Shown here: piece after piece, positions 14,586-23,894 of the stretch
Layout of the letters: every line of letters starts with the position of its first letter
Position numbering within the stretch: position 1 is the first letter of the stretch
Source of the DNA: an uncultured Lachnospiraceae bacterium
GTDB lineage: Bacteria; Bacillota; Clostridia; Lachnospirales; Lachnospiraceae
Assembly: GCA_947630595.1 (NCBI GenBank)
Contig: CANRIG010000021.1
Location: forward strand, 1-44,583
Length of the DNA stretch: 44,583 nt
Direction of reading: 5' to 3'
Translations under genes and position numbers: made by a program
The notes under the pieces: model-generated
Databases searched by the model: none
What the model was told of the DNA's origin: nothing
The model's input: the letters and a program-made list of their open reading frames with translations, nothing else

Positions 14586-14631
14586 ATGCCGGATTGTGGA
14601 AGTGCGAAGCACAGAACAATCTATGCGGCAT
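14586..14631 (-). terminator. Hairpin at the 3' end of the sulfur operon
   Basis: Nested stems ATGCCG/CGGCAT, GATTGT/ACAATC and GTGC-GAA-GCAC form a 46-nt imperfect hairpin at the stop of the last operon gene. No good T-run follows, so it may be a 3'-stabilising structure rather than a classic terminator. Confidence 0.5.
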
Positions 14632-15206
14632 CATTTTATATATGAAAGAATAGAATACATGAAAATGCCTGCGGCTCCTGTGCCCAGCATCACGCGAATG
14701 GGACTGGCTTTCCGTCTGCGCAGGATCAGCAGGCCCGCGCCGAAAATCAGCACAGAAATGATATTTACACTGCCGGGACGCTCCGGTACCGTCCGCTGTC
14801 CATAGAAAGACAGAATCAGCAGCGATACCGCGGCTGACGCAATCACAGCGACGACCGCCGGCCGCAGACCGGACAGGATTCCCTGCACCATAGTCAGCCC
14901 CCGGAACCGATAATAGGCATAGGCAAGTGTAGTCACAATCACACAGGCCGGCAGAATGCAGCCAACAGTCGCAACAATGGCGCCCGCGGTTCCGGCCACC
15001 TGAATCCCCACAAAAGTGGCTGAATTGATTGCCACCGGTCCCGGAGTCATTTCCGCTATAGTCATGATATCGGCAAATTGCGTCATAGTCAGCCATGGGT
15101 GCAGGTCGACAACCTGCCGCTGAATAAACGGCACGGCCGCATATCCCCCGCCAATGCTGAACAGGCCGACCTGAAAAAAGCTCCACAGCAATTCAAGGTA
15201 AATCAC
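14631..15206 (-). CDS. CHR-family (chromate/sulfate) transporter, second half-size subunit
   Basis: 191-aa membrane protein of the chromate ion transporter family, short-chain type. It has the diagnostic N-terminal SIGGGYAAVPFIQRQVV and AEMTPGPVAINSATFVG blocks and about six hydrophobic segments. GTG 15206 is chosen as start because GAGAGGAG lies 7 nt upstream and the family's N-terminal homology begins there; a longer open frame upstream is not used. It overlaps the first CHR gene by 14 bp. Short CHR proteins function as pairs (for example YwrB/YwrA of Bacillus subtilis). In this operon, export of sulfate, the natural analogue of chromate, is the likely role (inference). Confidence 0.85.
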   Translation of the reverse strand: MIYLELLWSFFQVGLFSIGGGYAAVPFIQRQVVDLHPWLTMTQFADIMTIAEMTPGPVAINSATFVGIQVAGTAGAIVATVGCILPACVIVTTLAYAYYRFRGLTMVQGILSGLRPAVVAVIASAAVSLLILSFYGQRTVPERPGSVNIISVLIFGAGLLILRRRKASPIRVMLGTGAAGIFMYSILSYIK

Positions 15207-15786
15207 GTTTTGGCTCCTCTCTCTTTCTGCAATAAAGCGTGTCCGCCGCGCCCAGAAGCCCGCAGGCCAGAATGACCAGGACAATGTTTACATTCAGGAA
15301 GCGGACCGCCGCAAACGATGCCAGCATTATCAGTACCGGAAACAGCCGTTTCTGCTTCAGAATTTCCTTTCCCATAGTAATTACTACATCGCAGATAACC
15401 GCGGCCACTCCGGCCAGCATACCGGTCATAGCCATATTGACTATATTGTTGTCCCGAAATGCCTCATAAAAAAGAGAGACCACGGATATGATTACAAACG
15501 GCGGCAGAATCGTTCCCAGCACTGTGAGCAGGGCTCCGGTTATGCCAGCAACATGGTAGCCCACAAGAATGGAAGCGTTGACCGCAATCGCCCCCGGAGA
15601 GGACTGTGCAATCGCAATAAAGTCCAGCATTTCCTGTTCTTCGATCCAGTGCAGTTCTTCCACAAATTTTTTCCGCATCAGTGAAATGATGACAAAGCCG
15701 CCGCCGAACGTACATGCGCTGAGCTGAAGAGTCGTCAGAAATAATGTCCTGTATGTCCGCCCGCTGTGTCTCAAATTCTTTCTCAA
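15193..15786 (-). CDS. CHR-family (chromate/sulfate) transporter, first half-size subunit
   Basis: 197-aa membrane protein with the CHR signature FGGGFVIISLMRKKFVEEL and AQSSPGAIAVNASILVGYHVAG. Start is TTG 15786, supported by AAGGTGAG about 6 nt upstream, and it overlaps the stop of the maturase gene as TTGA. It is about 190 aa, half the size of full-length ChrA, and is followed at once by its partner. True chromate resistance is possible, but the neighbours (sulfatase, maturase, ABC importer) point to sulfate as the physiological ion. Confidence 0.85.
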   Translation of the reverse strand: MRKNLRHSGRTYRTLFLTTLQLSACTFGGGFVIISLMRKKFVEELHWIEEQEMLDFIAIAQSSPGAIAVNASILVGYHVAGITGALLTVLGTILPPFVIISVVSLFYEAFRDNNIVNMAMTGMLAGVAAVICDVVITMGKEILKQKRLFPVLIMLASFAAVRFLNVNIVLVILACGLLGAADTLYCRKREEPKRDLP

Positions 15787-16910
15787 GCTCTCACCTTATT
15801 CATTATAATCCGATAAGCCTCAATCAGGCCCGGATATGCCGCCGCAAAAAACTCCTGATAGACTTCACAGTAATAATTTTTCTGCAGCCGGCCTGTAAAA
15901 AAGTCCCGGTCCCTCCTGCAGCCGCCCCGGCACAGCTGTCCCCATCTGCACTCCCGGCACTGCGGCGCAGGTATCATGCTCTCCTCAATGAAGCCGATTT
16001 TTTTCCGGCGCGTATCCATCTCTCCCAGGCTGTCCTCATTAAAATTGCCAATCCGGTACGCATCCAGCATATAAAAATCACAGGGGTACACACTCCCGTC
16101 TGCTTCCACCACGTATTCCATACCGCAGGTTCCGCTCATCCCGCAGACCGTCGGCGGCTGCCGGTTTAAAAGCAGCAGCAGGTTGTCAAAATAACCATGG
16201 TAGCTTTTCCGGCCCGCCTGCAGATCACGGAACCAGCAGTCAAAAGCGGTAAACAGATAATTTCGGTAATGCTCCGGCGTGAGCGACCAGGGATGGCCGC
16301 CCCGCACCTCGCCAATCGGATCCAGGCAGGGGATATACTGCTGGTAATCCCAGCCGTTTCTCCGGTAATAGCCGTACACCGCACGGTAATTGTCACAGAT
16401 TTCCGGGGTCAGTACCGTCAGGATATTAAAATCCACGCGGTGCTTTTTCAGCAGTTCCAGCCGCTTCTGCACTCTGGCGTGCGTGCCCCGGCCGGCCGCA
16501 TCCCGGCGGTTTGCATCGTGGATTTCCCGCATTCCGTCCATCGAAACACCCACCAGCACCCGGTGCTCCGCAAAAAAACGGCACCATTCCCGGTCCAGCA
16601 GCAGCCCGTTGGTCTGAAACGCATACTCCACCCGACACTGGTTGACGTTACAGCGGCGCACAATCTCTGTCATGTTTCGGTAAAAACCGAGCCCGGCCAG
16701 CGTCGGCTCACCGCCCTGAAAAGCAATGGTCAGCCACCCGCTGCACTCCTTCAATGTTTTTTCCAGAATATGCTCCAGCGTAGCCTCGCTCATAAGGCCA
16801 TAGTTCGGCACCTCTCTCTTGCCGGTTTCATCCGCGTAAAAGCAATAGCTGCAGCGCATGTTGCACATGCCGCTGACTGGCTTCAGCATGATACTCACAC
16901 AGGACCGCAT
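15783..16910 (-). CDS. Anaerobic sulfatase-maturating enzyme (radical SAM, SPASM domain)
   Basis: 375-aa oxygen-sensitive enzyme that oxidises the active-site Cys of a sulfatase to formylglycine. The radical-SAM cluster motif CNMRCSYC (Cys16, Cys20, Cys23), the GGEP motif (66-69) and the SPASM cysteines are all present (Cys256, 262, 277, 318, 321, 327, 331, 348) for two auxiliary 4Fe-4S clusters. The Asp in YPCDFY matches the proposed catalytic base of characterised maturases. It lies 58 bp downstream of its presumed substrate, the sulfatase, whose CMPSR motif is of the maturable Cys type. It implies an anaerobic host. Confidence 0.93.
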   Translation of the reverse strand: MRSCVSIMLKPVSGMCNMRCSYCFYADETGKREVPNYGLMSEATLEHILEKTLKECSGWLTIAFQGGEPTLAGLGFYRNMTEIVRRCNVNQCRVEYAFQTNGLLLDREWCRFFAEHRVLVGVSMDGMREIHDANRRDAAGRGTHARVQKRLELLKKHRVDFNILTVLTPEICDNYRAVYGYYRRNGWDYQQYIPCLDPIGEVRGGHPWSLTPEHYRNYLFTAFDCWFRDLQAGRKSYHGYFDNLLLLLNRQPPTVCGMSGTCGMEYVVEADGSVYPCDFYMLDAYRIGNFNEDSLGEMDTRRKKIGFIEESMIPAPQCRECRWGQLCRGGCRRDRDFFTGRLQKNYYCEVYQEFFAAAYPGLIEAYRIIMNKVRA

Positions 16911-16968: not shown

Positions 16969-18390
16969 CTAATACGCCCAGATTTCCTTCTCCGCGGTCT
17001 TATATTCCAGCCAGAATTTCTGCCCCTCCTCGGAAGACAGGTCATCCCAGTCCTCAGCATACTGCCGCAGCAGCCTATGCAGACGCTCGACAATCGGCTG
17101 CGACTCCTCGCACCAGAACAGATCGTGCATTTCCAGCGGATCCTCACTGATCTTAAACAGCTGCTTTCTGCGCATATCGCCGCATTTATACTCGATCAGC
17201 TTGTACTCGTAGTCTTTAATGCTGCGAACCTTGTCGCCGAACACGGAGAACAGGTACTCCCGCGTATGCGCGCTGCTGTCGCAAATCATCTTCCTGAAGC
17301 TGACGCCCTCCACCGTCTCCGGTATCGGGATATCATTTAAATCGCACAGGGTCGGAAAGATGTCAAACAGATAGATATACCCGTCCCTGGTCTCGTTTTC
17401 CGGTATTCCGGGACCGCTGATGATAAACGGCACTTTGATGCTGTGCTCGTAGGTACTCTGCTTGCCGAGAAGCCCGTGCTCGCCGACTGCCAGCCCGTTG
17501 TCCGCGGAAAACAGGATAATCGTATCGTCATACATACCGGTCTTCTTCAGGGTCTCAATAATCTTGCCGACCGTATGATCAAGATGACTGATCATCGCAT
17601 AGTAATCACGGATCTGAATCTTCACATCATGCTCGTCGCGCGGATGCGGCAGCAGCGCCTCGTCGCGGACATTTTTGATTCCGAAATCGAACGGGTGCTC
17701 CCGGTAAAAGTTTGCCGGCAGCGAAATTTCATCCAGATCATACATGTCCACAAATTCCTGCGGCATGCTTCGGGGATCATGCGGCGCCATATACGCCACA
17801 TACATATAAAACGGCTTGTCGCTGTCATAGCCCTCCAGGTATCTGCACGCGGCATCCGCAAACAGATCTGTCGAATGTGTGCCGCCGTTTACATGGTCAT
17901 AAATCCGGTCCACCACAACATTGTCAAAGGCAGGGTTCATGACGTCGTGGAAACGGTTCGCATACTGCCCGCTCTCATCAAAATGATACACCGGTACTTT
18001 CCAGTGATCATACATGCCGCCGAAGAAAATCTCCGCGCCGTCGTTGAAGCTGCGTGCATAGGAACGCGTACAGTTGTGCCATTTTCCGGTTCCAAAGCAG
18101 TTGTACCCGTTCTGCAGAAGCGTCTCTCCCAGCAAAGCGTGTTCCTCCGGTATCATCTCCCCGAAATGGTTCAGGTGAAACAGGCTGCGGCCTGTATTCA
18201 GCATCGCTCTGCTCGGCATGCACACCGCCGCAAAGGAGCCGCCCGGTATATGTGCGTTGGTGAAACTCGTACCGCTTTTCGCAAGCTCGTCCAGATTCGG
18301 CGTTTTGATCTCCGGGTTCCCCAAAGCGCCGATTGTGCTGTATTTCATATCATCAGCGAATAAAAACAGAATGTTTTTTTTCTTTTCCAT
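16969..18390 (-). CDS. Cytoplasmic Cys-type formylglycine sulfatase
   Basis: 473-aa arylsulfatase-superfamily (S1) hydrolase. Visible active-site elements are the metal ligands Asp13-Asp14 in FLFADDMKY, the modification motif Cys57-Met-Pro-Ser-Arg61, GKWHN (Lys103, His105), MAPHDPR (His204), SADNG (Asp297-Asn298) and Lys310. The protein begins MEKKKNILFLFADDM, i.e. the catalytic fold starts at residue 6 and no signal peptide exists, so it acts in the cytoplasm on an imported sulfate ester. The substrate is unknown; the ABC importer suggests a small organosulfate. The start lacks a strong Shine-Dalgarno site and lies 14 bp after the ATPase gene, so coupled translation is likely. Confidence 0.92.
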   Translation of the reverse strand: MEKKKNILFLFADDMKYSTIGALGNPEIKTPNLDELAKSGTSFTNAHIPGGSFAAVCMPSRAMLNTGRSLFHLNHFGEMIPEEHALLGETLLQNGYNCFGTGKWHNCTRSYARSFNDGAEIFFGGMYDHWKVPVYHFDESGQYANRFHDVMNPAFDNVVVDRIYDHVNGGTHSTDLFADAACRYLEGYDSDKPFYMYVAYMAPHDPRSMPQEFVDMYDLDEISLPANFYREHPFDFGIKNVRDEALLPHPRDEHDVKIQIRDYYAMISHLDHTVGKIIETLKKTGMYDDTIILFSADNGLAVGEHGLLGKQSTYEHSIKVPFIISGPGIPENETRDGYIYLFDIFPTLCDLNDIPIPETVEGVSFRKMICDSSAHTREYLFSVFGDKVRSIKDYEYKLIEYKCGDMRRKQLFKISEDPLEMHDLFWCEESQPIVERLHRLLRQYAEDWDDLSSEEGQKFWLEYKTAEKEIWAY

Positions 18391-18404: not shown

Positions 18405-19148
18405 TTACCACCATTTTATTAGTTCTGTTACTCGTTCCCGAATCTCCACAAATTCAGGCGCAGAAACCTTCCGCGGGCGCGGCAGCGGATTCTCGATGGA
18501 CTCCTTGACCTTGGTCGGCTTGTTCGTCAGCACCAGAATCCGGTTGCTCAGGTATACGGCCTCCTCAATATTGTGCGTGATGAAAATGACCGTCGTGCCC
18601 GTCTTCCTCCAGAGGTTGATCAGCTCATCCTCCAGATGATATTTCAGCTGCAGATCCAGCTGCCCATAGGGCTCGTCCATCAACAGAAGCTGCGGCTCCA
18701 CCGCAAAGGCACGCGCGATCACCACGCGCTGCAGCATGCTTGCCGAGAGCTGCCGCGGATAGTAATTGCGGTATTTCGTGAGGCCGACCATCTCCATCAC
18801 ATTTTCCACGCGCTCCCGCATAAGCGCTTCGCCGCAGTGCTTGATTTTCAGGCCATAACGGATATTTTCCTCCACGGTCAGCCAGCTCATGGTCGAATAT
18901 TCCTGAAAAATATAGGCGATGTCGTCCCGCTTCAGATCAATCGGCTTGCCGTTCATCGTGATCGAACCGCTGTCGATGTCGTACAGCTTGCAAAGGCTGT
19001 TCAGAAACGTCGTCTTGCCGCAGCCGGTCGGGCCTACAATGCAGAGAAATTCTCCCTTTTTCACCTCAAACGAAATGTCGTCGAGAACCAGCAGGTCTCC
19101 AAAACTCTTCGTCAGGTGCTCCACTTTTACCTTGATTTCTTCACTCAT
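18405..19148 (-). CDS. ABC importer ATPase A (NitT/TauT family) with degenerate signature motif
   Basis: 247-aa ATP-binding subunit of the nitrate/sulfonate/taurine type. Walker A GPTGCGKT (39-46), Q-loop Gln82, Walker B LLLMDE (154-159) and H-loop His192 (ITHNIEEA) are intact. The ABC signature, normally LSGGM/LSGGQ, reads LSASM (134-138), losing both glycines. TAAGGAGAGG supports ATG 19148, 9 bp after ATPase B. Together with the opposite defect in ATPase B this argues for an obligate heterodimer. The C-terminal region (PLPRPRKVSAPEF) matches that of ATPase B (NLPRPRNYVAPEF), so they are duplicates that diverged. Confidence 0.9.
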   Translation of the reverse strand: MSEEIKVKVEHLTKSFGDLLVLDDISFEVKKGEFLCIVGPTGCGKTTFLNSLCKLYDIDSGSITMNGKPIDLKRDDIAYIFQEYSTMSWLTVEENIRYGLKIKHCGEALMRERVENVMEMVGLTKYRNYYPRQLSASMLQRVVIARAFAVEPQLLLMDEPYGQLDLQLKYHLEDELINLWRKTGTTVIFITHNIEEAVYLSNRILVLTNKPTKVKESIENPLPRPRKVSAPEFVEIRERVTELIKWW

Positions 19149-19157
19149 AGCCTCTCC

Positions 19158-19928
19158 TTACCCGATCGTATCGTCCATATCTTTTGTGATCTGTTCGCGC
19201 AGCTCCAGAAATTCCGGTGCCACGTAATTCCGCGGTCTCGGCAGATTGACAAGATATTCCCGATGCACGGAGGTCGGGCAGTTATGCAGGAGGATGATCC
19301 GGTCCGCCAGATAGATTGCTTCTTCCGCGTTATTCGTCACAAAAACAACCGTCCGCTTCTCGGAAGCGCTGATCCGGTCCACTTCTTCCTCCATCAGATA
19401 CCGGGTCTGCGCGTCCAGATGACCGAAAGGCTCGTCCATGCAGATGATATCCGGCTCGTTGCAGTACGCCCGGGCGATGCCGACCCTCTGCTGCATACCG
19501 CCGGAGAGTTTGACCGGGAAATGCTTTTCAAAACCGGTCAGTCCGACCAGATCAATATAATACTGCGCCTTTTTGCGGCGCTCCGCCTTTTTCACTCCGC
19601 GCACGCAGGGCCCAAATTCCACATTTTTCATTACGTTGTACCACATGAAAAGGTTCGTTGTCTGGTACACCATCCCTCTGGAAGGAGATGGTCCGACTAC
19701 CTTCTCCCCGTTCACAACGACCTCGCCTCCGGTCGGCAGCTCCAAACCGGCGATCAGATTGAGCACGGTCGTCTTGCCGCACTGACCGGGCCCGAAAAGC
19801 ACTACAAATTCATTCTCATACACATTAAAGTTCAGGTGATCAACGACCAGATGGTCGCCTTCTCTATTGTAAAAGGTCTTTGAAACGTCTCTGACCTCAA
19901 TCACTGTTTTTTTCTTCTCCATTGTCAT
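19158..19928 (-). CDS. ABC importer ATPase B (NitT/TauT family) lacking the H-loop histidine
   Basis: 256-aa ATP-binding subunit. Walker A GPGQCGKT (46-53), Q-loop Gln89, canonical signature LSGGMQQR (141-148) and Walker B with catalytic Glu166 (CMDEP) are intact. The switch position that should be His reads VTNNAEEA (Asn199). Start is set at ATG 19928, which overlaps the permease stop as ATGA with GAGG 5 nt upstream; ATG 19922 is an alternative and a longer frame exists. In a heterodimer with ATPase A, this subunit's signature would complete ATPase A's intact site, leaving the other site doubly defective. Confidence 0.9.
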   Translation of the reverse strand: MTMEKKKTVIEVRDVSKTFYNREGDHLVVDHLNFNVYENEFVVLFGPGQCGKTTVLNLIAGLELPTGGEVVVNGEKVVGPSPSRGMVYQTTNLFMWYNVMKNVEFGPCVRGVKKAERRKKAQYYIDLVGLTGFEKHFPVKLSGGMQQRVGIARAYCNEPDIICMDEPFGHLDAQTRYLMEEEVDRISASEKRTVVFVTNNAEEAIYLADRIILLHNCPTSVHREYLVNLPRPRNYVAPEFLELREQITKDMDDTIG

Positions 19929-20707
19929 GACCCCCTCACTCTCCATCTGCACAGGACGCGTTCAAGAAGACGCATCAACGAGGCGAGCGCCAGTCCGGTC
20001 ACCGCAATCGCGATAATCCCGGCGAGAATCTGCGGCATATCCGCGTTCTGCTGTCCGGCTGTGATGATCCAGCCCACACCCTCCGTAGCTGACACCATCT
20101 CCGCCGCCAGCACCGCCATCCAAGATGTGGACAGACCGACCTGAAGACCGGAAAAGATGTAGGGGACGCAGGAGGGAATGACGATCTTAAAAAAGGCCTG
20201 CACCTTGTTCGCACCCAGCATATAGGCGGCGTTCAGAATATTCTCATCCACCTGTCGGGAACCGGAAAAGGTGTTGACGACGATATTGACAAAACCGCCG
20301 ATAAAGATGATAAAAATTTTTGCGGTCTCGCCAATGCCGAACCATACGATTGCCATCGGAATCCAGGCGACGCCGGGAATCGGGCGCACCAGCTCAAACA
20401 AAGGCCGCACAATCGCCCGGATCAGATCGGAACGCCCCATCGCAATGCCGATCACAATACCGCTGGCCGCGGAGAGGCCGAAACCGATCAGCACGCGCCG
20501 CAGGCTCACCAGCAGATGCATCGGGAGCGTATATTTCCGCCCCACCGTATTCGTGCACATAGTGACAAACCGCACCGCCACCGCCCACGGCGAAGGCAGG
20601 AGGTTGCCGACGCTGGTAAAACTGACGCCCAACTGCCAGATCAGAAGTATCGCGGCAAATCCGGCCAGAGAGAGCAGGAAGTTCTTTATGGAAGCAGCCA
20701 CCTTCAT
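19925..20707 (-). CDS. ABC importer permease A (NitT/TauT family)
   Basis: 260-aa inner-membrane permease with about six transmembrane helices and the EAA coupling loop AAYMLGANKVQAFFKIVIP, which contacts the ATPases. AGGAGG 8 nt upstream fixes ATG 20707; the open frame extends seven codons further to a TTG that is not used. One base separates it from the stop of permease B. Two different permeases and two different ATPases in one operon suggest a hetero-tetrameric transporter core instead of the homodimers of TauABC or SsuABC. Confidence 0.9.
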   Translation of the reverse strand: MKVAASIKNFLLSLAGFAAILLIWQLGVSFTSVGNLLPSPWAVAVRFVTMCTNTVGRKYTLPMHLLVSLRRVLIGFGLSAASGIVIGIAMGRSDLIRAIVRPLFELVRPIPGVAWIPMAIVWFGIGETAKIFIIFIGGFVNIVVNTFSGSRQVDENILNAAYMLGANKVQAFFKIVIPSCVPYIFSGLQVGLSTSWMAVLAAEMVSATEGVGWIITAGQQNADMPQILAGIIAIAVTGLALASLMRLLERVLCRWRVRGS

Positions 20708-20708
20708 C

Positions 20709-21494
20709 CTATTTTCCTCCTCTGACAAATTTTATTTCGATCAGATCAAAGACCAGCGAAATCACGATGCCGATAAACCCCAGCGTCAACAGCCCGACGA
20801 TGATGATATCCGCCCGCAGCAGATTTCTGGCTGTGGAAATCATGTATCCGATTCCTCTGGTCGCGCCCATCAGTTCCGCCGCCACGAGACCCATCCACGA
20901 GACGCCCATGGCCACGCGCAGGCCCGCGAAAATCATCGGCAGCGCTGACGGAATCGCCACGGTAAACAACTGCTGCAGGTTCGACGCGCCGAAAGTCCTG
21001 GCCACCCACAGATGAATCTGGCTGGTCTGCTTGATGCCGGAATAGGAGTTGACAATGGACGGGATGACTGTGGAGAAAAAGATGATACAGGCCTTGGACT
21101 CGATACCGATGCCGAACAGGGTAATCATCACCGGAATCAGGGCAATCGGCGGAATCGGTTTCAGGAAGTCAAAGACGGGCCGCACGATTTTTTCCACCCA
21201 GGAGACCCAGCCCATGGCTATGCCAAGCGGTACCCCGATCACCACGCCCATCAGATATCCGGCCATCGCGATTTTGAAGCTCTCCCAGATATGCTGCGGC
21301 AGCGTCGCGCCATCGGGAACTCTGGAGGATAATTTCGTCACAAAGCTCTGAAAAACCGTAATCGGATCCGGCAGAGAATAGGCCGGCGCCAGCCGCAAAA
21401 CCGCGGTACACACGTACCACACGGCCAGAAAGACAAGAATGGAGAGCAGAGAAACAATTCTCAGCCTGAACTGTCTTTTTTTGTATGTACTCAT
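20709..21494 (-). CDS. ABC importer permease B (NitT/TauT family)
   Basis: 261-aa paralogue of permease A with the same layout: an N-terminal helix, the IGVPLGIAMGWV and KPIPPIALIPVMITLFGIG blocks typical of the BPD_transp_1 domain, and an EAA loop in VARTFGASNLQQLFTVAIP. AAGGAG precedes ATG 21494. It follows the substrate-binding protein gene after a 116-bp gap containing a terminator-like hairpin, so it and downstream genes are probably made at lower levels than the binding protein. Confidence 0.9.
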   Translation of the reverse strand: MSTYKKRQFRLRIVSLLSILVFLAVWYVCTAVLRLAPAYSLPDPITVFQSFVTKLSSRVPDGATLPQHIWESFKIAMAGYLMGVVIGVPLGIAMGWVSWVEKIVRPVFDFLKPIPPIALIPVMITLFGIGIESKACIIFFSTVIPSIVNSYSGIKQTSQIHLWVARTFGASNLQQLFTVAIPSALPMIFAGLRVAMGVSWMGLVAAELMGATRGIGYMISTARNLLRADIIIVGLLTLGFIGIVISLVFDLIEIKFVRGGK

Positions 21495-21610: not shown

Positions 21611-22615
21611 TTATTTTCCAAGCGCAGCCAGCGCGTCGTCCAGAACGTCGTTCGCACAGTTGGCTGTGATCGTCTCCACCTTGTCAGCCTCGATCAGATC
21701 CTGCGTCACATAATACTCGCCATACGCTGTCGCAAATTCGGTCAGATCCATCGCTGCCGCCTCTTCAAATGACGTGAACGGTTTCGCATTGCACTCCTTG
21801 CGGATGTCATCCTCAGTCTTTTCTTTCGCGTTGTCCGCATACCAGTTCATGACGGTCTCATACTGGATTTCCGGATCCGTCATGTCGTCCGTCGCCGTGC
21901 AGAGCATCTCGACAAATTTCACGACCTGATCATACTTATTATTATAAGCGTCCGCAGTACACACGGTAGCTTCCATCAGATTTCCGTTTACGCTGTCAAA
22001 GCTCGCAATAAATTCCGTGTCGTCGCTGACTTCATAGCAGTACGGGGATGTAATCACGGCATAATCGCTCTCGCCCGCCTCCCAGCTTGCGAAGCAGTTG
22101 TCGAAGCTCTGGCTGATAATATTGACGTCGGAAACGGACAGTCCCATCTGCTCCAGCCAAAGAACCAGCATATAATGTCCGGTAGTGCCGTAGTTGGTCA
22201 GAATGGTCTTTCCCTTTACGACCTCTGCCATCGCGTCGAAATCGCCCAGCACATCGAGGATCGGATCGCCCTTTCTGGCTGCCACGCCGTCGTCGCCGGT
22301 GCCGTCGCACTGGTGCGCAATCAGCTTGCAGTCATAGTTTGCAACCGCATAGATAAATGCTCCGCCCGTGATGGCGATATCCCACTCGCTGATCGCTTCA
22401 TTGATCGCCGGCCCTCCGTCGAACACTTCAATCTCGATCGGGCAGTCGAACGTTTCCGGCATGTTTTCGGAAAGGATTCTCCCAATCGGGGAACTGCAGT
22501 ACTGGCTCTGCACCGCGATTACCAATGGCTCCGTTTCCTCCGCATGGACACACACTCCGCCTGCAGTGCTCAATCCGAGTACGAGACTAAAAATTAACGC
22601 TAATTTTCTTTTCAT
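21611..22615 (-). CDS. ABC transporter substrate-binding protein (NitT/TauT-like, secreted type)
   Basis: 334-aa periplasmic-binding-protein-fold protein (NMT1/SsuA-like). The real start is ATG 22615 (MKRKLALIFSLVLGL...), with GGAGAAGG before it. A hydrophobic signal segment ends in CVHAEE. Cys22 is not in a lipobox (GGVC, with Val at -1), so a type I cleavage after VHA looks more likely than lipidation. Ligand identity is unknown; the mature part is acidic, with few homology landmarks I can name (AVQSQYCSSPIG, NYGTTGHYMLVLWLEQMG). First gene of the nine-gene operon. Confidence 0.85.
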   Translation of the reverse strand: MKRKLALIFSLVLGLSTAGGVCVHAEETEPLVIAVQSQYCSSPIGRILSENMPETFDCPIEIEVFDGGPAINEAISEWDIAITGGAFIYAVANYDCKLIAHQCDGTGDDGVAARKGDPILDVLGDFDAMAEVVKGKTILTNYGTTGHYMLVLWLEQMGLSVSDVNIISQSFDNCFASWEAGESDYAVITSPYCYEVSDDTEFIASFDSVNGNLMEATVCTADAYNNKYDQVVKFVEMLCTATDDMTDPEIQYETVMNWYADNAKEKTEDDIRKECNAKPFTSFEEAAAMDLTEFATAYGEYYVTQDLIEADKVETITANCANDVLDDALAALGK

Positions 22616-22997
22616 TTTCCTTCTCCTTTTCTGATTTTTGAATGCTTTGGTCCACTGGTTACTATCTTTTACATGCAAACCGGCAATCATCCCCCAATGC
22701 TGTTTTGCGTAAACAATCCCAAATACTGTGCCAGCCTTTGCCGTGCATGTGAAAAGCGTGCTTGAAATTTTTGCTGTTTTGTTATAAAATTAACACTATA
22801 CGGCATTTACCCAGATTATTTTTCTTACAATTTTCATTTTAATTGATTAAAGTCTATCATATTTTTTCATATAAGTAAATTATATTTTATTTATGGGATT
22901 CATAACAAATTTATTATGACAGATGCACGGAAATTCAGAAGATTTTTTTGTCGCCGCCGGCGATAATTTTACAGAGGATGTGGGGTGATCTGAGACA
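22616..22997. promoter_or_regulatory. AT-rich divergent control region of the sulfur operon and lysR
   Basis: 382 bp without a gene. A perfect palindrome TCATAA-N8-TTATGA lies at 22900-22919, a candidate LysR-type site. It covers a putative operon -35 (TTGTTA, 22903-22908 on the minus strand), which is 18 bp from TATAAT (22879-22884). This promoter would give a leader of about 260 nt. A second -10-like TATAGT occurs closer to the gene, near 22796, without a good -35. I see no recognisable riboswitch in the leader. Confidence 0.55.
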
Positions 22998-23894
22998 ATG
23001 ACAATCAGAAATATGCAGATATTTGTAGCGGTCTGCCAGGAGGGTTCCGTCACAAAGGCAGCTGAAAAACTGTTTCTGGCGCAGCCGGCAGTCAGTCTGG
23101 CGGTCAAAGAACTGGAAAAAGAGTGCGGGCAGCCTCTCTTTGAACGTTTCGCGAGGAAACTGCACATCACTCCTTTCGGAAAAGAAATTTACGACTATTC
23201 CCAGCGGATTTTATCTATCTACACAGAGATGGAAGCTGCCGTGACCGAGCTGGATTTTACGAATACGCTCCGCGTCGGCACCGGAACCTTCCTCGGAAAA
23301 ATGATTTTTCCGCAGTATGTGCGCAGGTTTCAGGACGAAAATCCCGGCACCTCTGTACGGCTGTTCATAGACCGCACGGAAAACAATGCCGGCAGCCTGC
23401 TGGAGAACAAGGTTGATTTCGTAATCATGGAGACCTTTCCCAACCTGCCCAATGTCTGCATAAAGGTGCTGCAGACCGCACCAATCGTAGCACTGTGCAA
23501 CATCCGCCATCCGCTGGCCCGGCAGGAACACGTGACGCCGCAGGACATCGTCCGCTATCCGCTTCTGCTGCGCGAGAGCACCAGCCATATCCATAACGAT
23601 GTCAGACACTATTTTGATGAGCACGGAATCCTTATTCACCCGTACTGGGAGAGCATCAGCGTGTCGGCGCTGTTAAACGCAGTGCGCGAAAATCTGGGCG
23701 TGGCCTTCCTCTCCACCAGCAATCTGCGCGAGGTCGATCTGCAGGAAATCAAAATCATCCCTCTGCCGGATCTGCACGCGCAGCGGCTTGTGAGCCTTTA
23801 CTACCATAAAGACAAAAAAATCACACCGCTGATGCGCCGGTTTATCGACGGCTTTGAACAGTTCCTGCGGGAAGAAACTCTGGTTGACTTTTAA
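22998..23894 (+). CDS. LysR-family transcriptional regulator
   Basis: 298-aa LTTR with a typical N-terminal winged helix-turn-helix (1-60; TKAAEKLFLAQPAVSLAVKELEKECG) and a two-lobed effector-binding domain (about 90-295). It is divergent from the ABC/sulfatase operon and separated from it by the palindrome-bearing control region, the classic arrangement for a LysR activator of the neighbouring operon. By analogy with CysB/Cbl-type regulators it could sense sulfur status or the imported organosulfate; this is inference from context, because the effector domain alone does not tell. Confidence 0.9.
   Translation: MTIRNMQIFVAVCQEGSVTKAAEKLFLAQPAVSLAVKELEKECGQPLFERFARKLHITPFGKEIYDYSQRILSIYTEMEAAVTELDFTNTLRVGTGTFLGKMIFPQYVRRFQDENPGTSVRLFIDRTENNAGSLLENKVDFVIMETFPNLPNVCIKVLQTAPIVALCNIRHPLARQEHVTPQDIVRYPLLLRESTSHIHNDVRHYFDEHGILIHPYWESISVSALLNAVRENLGVAFLSTSNLREVDLQEIKIIPLPDLHAQRLVSLYYHKDKKITPLMRRFIDGFEQFLREETLVDF

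Follow-up and report, generated by a model that had tools for sequence, protein, structure and literature searches.

Gene Organization of the Locus

The stretch of DNA analysed here, 44,583 nucleotides in its whole length and hereafter called the window, carries on its minus strand an operon for a putative importer, in which the genes follow each other in the order of substrate-binding protein (SBP, 21611..22690), permease 2 (20709..21494), permease 1 (19925..20728), ATPase B (19158..19952 as the longest open reading frame), ATPase A (18405..19148), sulfatase (16969..18390), a radical-SAM gene resembling sulfatase maturases (anSME, 15783..16910) and two overlapping CHR genes, similar to chromate transporters (14631..15786). 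The intergenic gaps range from -92 to 116 bases, with nine bases separating B from A and the sulfatase starting 14 bases after A; a LysR-type regulator recognized by Pfam lies divergently on the plus strand (22998..23894).

Pfam assigns both ATPases to ABC_tran and both permeases to BPD_transp_1, which places them in the NitT/TauT sequence family (SsuABC/TauABC-like). The nearest NCBIfam models include SaoA, TauB, NtrCD and TauC, all below their curated cut-off. Permease 1 matches best SaoP and then TauC, permease 2 matches best TauC, again below cut-off in each case, and the SBP may be SsuA-like (TIGR01728, E 1.2e-12, below cut-off), with no Pfam match at 1e-5. The SaoA equivalog, NF040729, was ruled out, since A scores 222.8 bits and B 219.1 bits against a cut-off of 360. 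Downstream of the ATPases, the sulfatase (Pfam PF00884, E 2.6e-46) bears a Cys-x-Pro-Ser-Arg motif of the formylglycine type, the maturase-like protein reaches 396.5 bits with PRK13758 of NCBIfam (E 1.2e-118, cut-off 441), and the CHR frame at 15193-15786 matches TIGR00937 below cut-off (E 3.3e-24). NitT/TauT importers usually have a single ATPase gene and a single permease gene; the window departs from this form in having two ATPases and two permeases.

Complementary Changes in the Two ATPases

ATPase A has the motifs GPTGCGKTT (Walker A), IFQEYS (Q-loop), QLSASMLQR (signature), LLLMDEP, YGQLD (D-loop) and FITHNIEEA (H-loop). It keeps the Walker A Lys, Walker B, the Q-loop Gln and the H-loop His (His192, 18573..18575, minus strand, as all positions in this section), and is altered in the signature, where Ala136-Ser137 (18738..18743) replace the Gly-Gly of canonical relatives, and in the D-loop, where Gln163 (18660..18662) stands at a position occupied by Ala in at least 95% of 39 canonical relatives. 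ATPase B, with GPGQCGKTT, VYQTTN, KLSGGMQQR, IICMDEP, FGHLD and FVTNNAEEA in the same order, keeps the signature glycines (Gly151-Gly152, 19497..19502) and has Asn207 in place of the canonical H-loop His (19332..19334). It also has Gln57 at the fourth residue of Walker A, which is canonically Gly (19782..19784). If the two proteins paired head to tail, one composite site (site 1) would combine the Walker A, Walker B and H-loop of A with the LSGGM of B and would thus contain all classical catalytic residues, while the other (site 2) would combine the Walker A Gln and H-loop Asn of B with the LS-x-S and D-loop Gln of A. All three changes, those in the Walker A and H-loop of B and that in the signature of A, map to this same composite site.

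The earlier note on this DNA had read correctly the LSASM and retained His of A, as well as the intact LSGGMQQR and the Asn of VTNNAEEA in B. Its deduction of one fully canonical and one doubly defective site holds as regards the complementarity of the changes and their convergence on one composite site, but it missed the third change, Gln57 of B.

AlphaFold predicts the fold of a complete ABC ATPase for both proteins (mean pLDDT 90.8 for A and 91.6 for B), and for both the nearest folds in the PDB are those of CmpBCD/NrtBCD. Residues 1-11 of the longest frame of B have pLDDT below 50, and hence its translation may begin at an internal ATG.

Distribution of the A-B Pair among Bacteria

Protein A was scanned against one genome per species in 84,980 species, which returned at least 571 relatives among 597 stretches; the best 80 loci, which were kept, belong to Bacillota (65), Spirochaetota (13) and Actinomycetota (one), with one being unplaced. 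Within the window's own family, A is present at E 1e-75 in 16 of 299 genomes, the window's genome included. The window's genus is represented in this search by one further genome (G152), which has no A at E 1e-75, and the operon therefore appears patchy within the genus. Another genome, G253, contains six copies of A at E 1e-75 or better (L090, L102, L107, L110, L218 and L219), which suggests expansion to several substrates.

Motifs were compared in loci L001-L110 less L081 (a copy of the window), L141-L180, L186-L213 and the window, a set that comprises 138 A genes (123 distinct), 134 B genes (121 distinct) and 134 pairs (122 distinct), together with a canonical comparison set of 39 relatives. 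Two pieces of a broken B from L005 were dropped, and L147, which passed the 250-bit line for B with 251 bits despite having canonical motifs and no A partner, was moved by hand to the canonical set; the tree also puts it among canonical sequences.

In every one of the 122 distinct pairs, which derive from Bacillota, Spirochaetota and one actinobacterial MAG, B is without the H-loop His and the Walker A Gly and A is without at least the second signature Gly. Hence, the co-occurrence of an LSASM-type loss with the Asn, which the earlier note had proposed to look for in orthologous pairs, extends to the full set of changes. The pairs of L218 and L219, outside the 122, also fit the pattern. For A, the signature reads AS, TS, VS, IS, SS or MS, and GS once (L074), so that the second Gly is always lost: across 122 A proteins, Gly136 is kept in 1% and Gly137 in 0%, with Ser137, the D-loop Gln163 and a Thr for the Walker A Ser each found in 122 of 122, and the H-loop His in all 123 distinct A. 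The protein ends with Lys/Arg-Trp-Trp in 121 of 123 cases (KWW in the window), a feature present in none of the 121 B and 41 canonical sequences. For B (n = 121), the fourth residue of Walker A is Gln in 112, Arg in four, His in four and Leu in one, never the Gly found in 39 of 39 canonical relatives; the H-loop residue is Asn in 120 and Ser in one, never His (121 and one, respectively, when counted over the 122 pairs); and both the signature Gly-Gly and Gly56, in place of the canonical Walker A Ser, are invariant (121/121). The Walker Lys, Walker B Asp and Q-loop Gln are also kept, as is the catalytic Glu in 120 of 121, and the D-loop position is His in 81, with Ala in just 21%. Two B proteins stand apart. 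That of L072 (6043-6972, plus strand) has Gln for the catalytic Walker B Glu (DQP), at the altered site, thereby resembling the usual laboratory mutant of hydrolysis, and that of L145 (7661-8446, plus strand) is the one with Ser for Asn at the position of the H-loop His, combined with a Walker A of GPGQAGKT.

Among the outcomes named in advance as damaging to the original claim were a sequencing error and the occurrence of one defect without the other. The former is ruled out, because 122 distinct pairs share these residues while using different codons for them: the Asn of B is encoded by AAT in 61 and AAC in 59 (the Ser by TCA), and the second signature residue of A by AGT in 76, AGC in 37 and TCN in 10. 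Regarding the latter, a search with B of 398 genomes of the phylum gave 40 listed places that were opened, of which seven are family loci (274-364 bits) and 33 canonical (251 bits at most); the gap in score to the window B between family and canonical proteins is narrow, since the lowest family B elsewhere, that of L110, has 261 bits. The gap is wide with a B profile in 198 genomes of the spirochaete phylum, where the family occurs in 12 (above 386 bits) and seven places below 315 bits are canonical. Among 149 genomes of the phylum of the actinobacterial MAG, the family is present in that MAG only. A pattern scan for non-His H-loops in 291 genomes of the class produced five matches in three genomes (the window's included), all being B with an adjoining A, and a homology-free scan of 250 genomes of the family produced 32 matches in 19 genomes; 25 of these are B genes, and all 25 adjoin an A gene when coordinates are compared by eye. 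The other seven were matched by phmmer to neither A nor B. One of these (L229), a frame of 58 residues, has a MalK-like H-loop with Tyr for His and is likely a gene scrap. No intermediate with one defect was found among the places opened in the phylum and spirochaete searches with B or in the non-His H-loop scans. A plasmid search with B returned 155 records, all below 60% identity.

Conservation and Origin of the Altered Site

A priori, two defects would share a composite site with a probability of 1 in 2, and three with a probability of 1 in 4. The argument of the earlier note, that the coincidence in the window is unlikely to be due to chance, is consequently weak as worded for a single genome, and the weight rests on conservation. 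Loci diverge by up to 50% in A and 53% in B, and in sets of 20 the identity to the window is 56-71% for A and 49-67% for B; the key positions nevertheless hold. We examined 46 alignment columns that are at least 95% identical among the 39 canonical relatives, counting as lost those kept in less than 10%. B has lost four of these columns, namely two in Walker A (Gly for Ser and Gln for Gly), that of the H-loop His (now Asn) and Gly227. The nine lost by A comprise the Walker A Ser, replaced by Thr, then Ala53, Gly54 and Leu86, the two glycines of the signature, the D-loop Ala, replaced by Gln, the Thr that follows the D-loop, and Gly212. The D-loop faces the Walker A of the partner, and the losses, mostly in the Walker/H-loop half of B and including the signature and D-loop half of A, thus point to the same composite site. 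The split is not clean, however, for four of the nine losses of A lie on its own Walker/Q-loop half, with Ala53 and Gly54 just past Walker A and Leu86 just past the Q-loop.

To call the remaining site fully canonical, as previously done, is therefore too strong. Site 1 has departures of its own: in A the Walker A Ser is replaced by Thr and Ala53, Gly54 and Leu86 are lost, while the D-loop of B, which would face this site, is mostly His (81/121). Its classical residues, that is Walker A Gly and Lys, Q-loop Gln, Walker B Asp and Glu, H-loop His and signature Gly-Gly, show one change only, GPTSCGK in one A, and the changes of classical catalytic residues are confined to one composite site bar this single case in 123.

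Phylogenetically, the A proteins group in a single clade and so do the B proteins, with support of 1.0 and 0.997, respectively, in FastTree (142 rows) and of 100 and 99 SH-aLRT in a quick tree of 57 rows. The altered pair thus had a single origin and was retained, and the 122 pairs are not independent events. The AU test does not reject A and B together as one clade (p 0.69), and FastTree did not recover that clade. A single origin would suit neutral decay, too: a redundant site that became functionless after gene duplication, as exporters show similar degenerate sites. Under this explanation one would expect drift, yet the replacing residues are held near fixation over 50-53% divergence with synonymous change of their codons, the pattern expected from selection on an alternative site, and we judge neutral decay to be very improbable.

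The terms dead and decay, used in the earlier note for this site, are too strong also because B keeps the Walker Lys and Asp, the Q-loop Gln and, with one exception, the catalytic Glu, alongside near-invariant residues of its own; a His-to-Asn change at site 2 of ABCC1 retains transport like that of the wild type, according to the review PMC7756269. From sequence comparison, a re-specialised site appears to fit better than decay. In its strongest form, this would mean that site 2 is unimpaired and follows its own consensus (GPGQCGKT, TNN-x-EEA, LS-x-S, YGQLD), being active or regulatory with other kinetics or another ligand. The near invariance of Ser137 and Gln163 in A (122/122 each) and of Asn (120/121) and Gly56 (121/121) in B would agree with this, as would the retention of Glu, Asp, Lys and Q-loop Gln and the transport by the ABCC1 variant (PMC7756269). 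Against it are the degenerate site of the exporter Pdr5, which combines signature and H-loop changes (PMC7756269), and the existence of one natural Glu-to-Gln B, in L072; a site 2 of this unimpaired kind seems to us unlikely.

Probable Partnership of the ATPases and Their Permeases

The genes for A and B are adjacent, with B first, in 114 of the 122 distinct pairs; in five A comes first with genes in between, and in three B comes first with frames starting at least 1.3 kb apart. A B gene is present at 134 of 138 A loci, and the four A genes without a scored B are those of L005 (broken B frame), L028 (a piece of B near the contig start), L061 (contig start) and L092 (contig ending about 200 bases past A). 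Three loci (L141, L143 and L145) have the order A, SBP, permease, permease, B, indicating that A and B remain in one operon after rearrangement; none of the three has an open reading frame matching the window sulfatase. The distance matrices of A and B correlate with r 0.84, compared with a highest value of 0.14 in 500 permutations, a co-divergence that is also expected from shared species history.

Of 88 pair loci, 85 have two permease genes, so that the membrane part is probably heteromeric as well, whereas 32 of 33 canonical loci have a single one. The latter have one ordinary NitT-type ATPase in 33 of 33 cases, a single ATPase thus being usual among these relatives; the earlier note had described NitT/TauT importers as normally using a homodimeric ATPase. 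Could A and B instead form separate homodimers, belonging to two transporters or to alternative states of one? An A2 dimer would have no intact signature, and a B2 dimer neither H-loop His nor Walker A Gly; the sharing of the locus by 134 of 138 A genes with B, the co-divergence and the two permeases also speak against homodimers, for which we see scarcely any likelihood.

Proposed Mechanism

The reading that we favour, and consider probable from the conserved motifs and gene order, is that of a heteromeric importer family with one binding protein, two permeases and two ATPases, in which A and B would form an obligate head-to-tail heterodimer for the uptake of anionic substrates. Site 1 would hydrolyse ATP. 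Site 2 still has the residues for binding Mg-nucleotide but would be expected to show slow hydrolysis at best; its nucleotide is probably retained as a hinge or clamp, with one ATP per cycle being spent at site 1. The cargo would most likely consist of anionic organic molecules, sulfated or otherwise, of which the neighbouring sulfatase may then hydrolyse some.

For heteromeric exporters, hydrolysis of one ATP is thought sufficient to reset the pump (PMC7756565). The catalytic Glu and the H-loop His are both described as required for efficient hydrolysis, and loss of the Glu as a hallmark of degenerate sites in exporters (PMC7544095). In this respect the family argues against the proposed mechanism, because B retains the Glu in 120 of 121 proteins, unlike the exporter hallmark, with Gln in L072 alone. 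The latter change would be in keeping with a site 2 that has no need to hydrolyse. A possible variant, which we advance tentatively, is that of an alternative site with a consensus of its own across both subunits (GPGQCGKT and TNN in B, LS-x-S and YGQLD in A), again with one hydrolysis per cycle, in which the second site would be a lasting hinge that depends on nucleotide or a protein-protein staple matched to the two different permeases.

Association with Sulfatases and Possible Substrates

A sulfatase is found in 64 of 88 pair loci and in none of 33 canonical controls; since the controls are the next-best homologues of B and belong to different operons, this is a contrast between families rather than a matched test. 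The gene lies immediately downstream of A in 55 of the 80 pair loci that have room for it, and 24 of the 88 show no sulfatase in the stretch examined, some because their contigs end. All 88 sulfatase frames of the 64 loci contain C-x-P-[SA]-R. With C-M-P-S-R and a sulfatase domain, the window protein is a formylglycine (S1) sulfatase; its best solved chain by sequence is a choline-sulfatase (E 6.7e-37). By eye it has no signal sequence, which suggests cytoplasmic hydrolysis following uptake. A maturase-like gene accompanies 21 of 88 pair loci.

The SBPs share 22-48% identity with that of the window in an alignment of 18 and are thus more diverse than the ATPases, making several substrates likely. 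Our best guess is that the substrates would be sulfate esters or sulfonates. As to the CHR genes, one might guess that they export the sulfate freed by the sulfatase. They were ruled out as a trait of the family, given that CHR-like frames occur in three of 88 pair loci (L029, L038 and L186) versus one of 33 controls.

Comparison with Known Systems

Whether importers that depend on a binding protein require both ATP sites, and whether a single hydrolysis per cycle is enough, has been debated mainly on the basis of engineered mutants. Here a family of Bacillota and Spirochaetota has made such a change naturally, and with a separate gene for each ATPase and each permease either site can be altered alone, offering a natural test case for the requirement of two sites. 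The family also points to a route of uptake that is frequently linked with sulfatases. It can be recognised by the sequence rule of GPGQCGKT/TNN beside LS-x-S/KWW; no NCBIfam model reaches its cut-off among the matches listed.

Both in sequence and in fold, the closest solved relatives of A and B are the cyanobacterial importers of nitrate and bicarbonate, NrtBCD and CmpBCD, in which NrtCD and CmpCD likewise constitute two different ATPases in one NitT-type importer. The chains of NrtC, NrtD and CmpD carry His, SGGM and G-H-S-G-C-G-K, with no one-sided site in those chains, unlike A and B. NrtBCD and CmpBCD have one permease gene per complex. Importers of the SsuBC, TauBC and SaoAP type share their ATPase and permease families with the window, as their models are its best NCBIfam matches, albeit below cut-off, but three SaoA proteins (L214-L216) have canonical motifs, unlike A and B. 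Degenerate sites have been described in the mycobacterial peptide importers OppABCD and DppABCD.

One consensus and one degenerate composite site, as proposed here, characterize TM287/288, TAP, ABCB11 and Pdr5, according to PMC7756269 and PMC7544095; these are exporters, however, and many of them are without the catalytic Glu that the A/B family keeps. The asymmetry was previously presented as a trait of exporters rather than of importers. This stands insofar as canonical relatives have one ATPase, and does not insofar as NrtCD and CmpCD are heteromeric and RbsA and NupO, fused proteins of Bacillus subtilis, are importers reported to have one degenerate ATP site (PMC11466899). RbsA and NupO have two ATPase domains per chain, the second without the Walker Lys, whereas A and B are separate chains that keep this Lys. 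In the literature searched, most subscription papers lying outside its scope, we found no paper on this family, nor any NitT-type importer in which the ATPases are separate chains and one site is altered. Degenerate sites in importers and heteromeric NitT-type ATPases are already known, and what appears to be new in the present family is their combination: separate NitT-type ATPases with one altered site.
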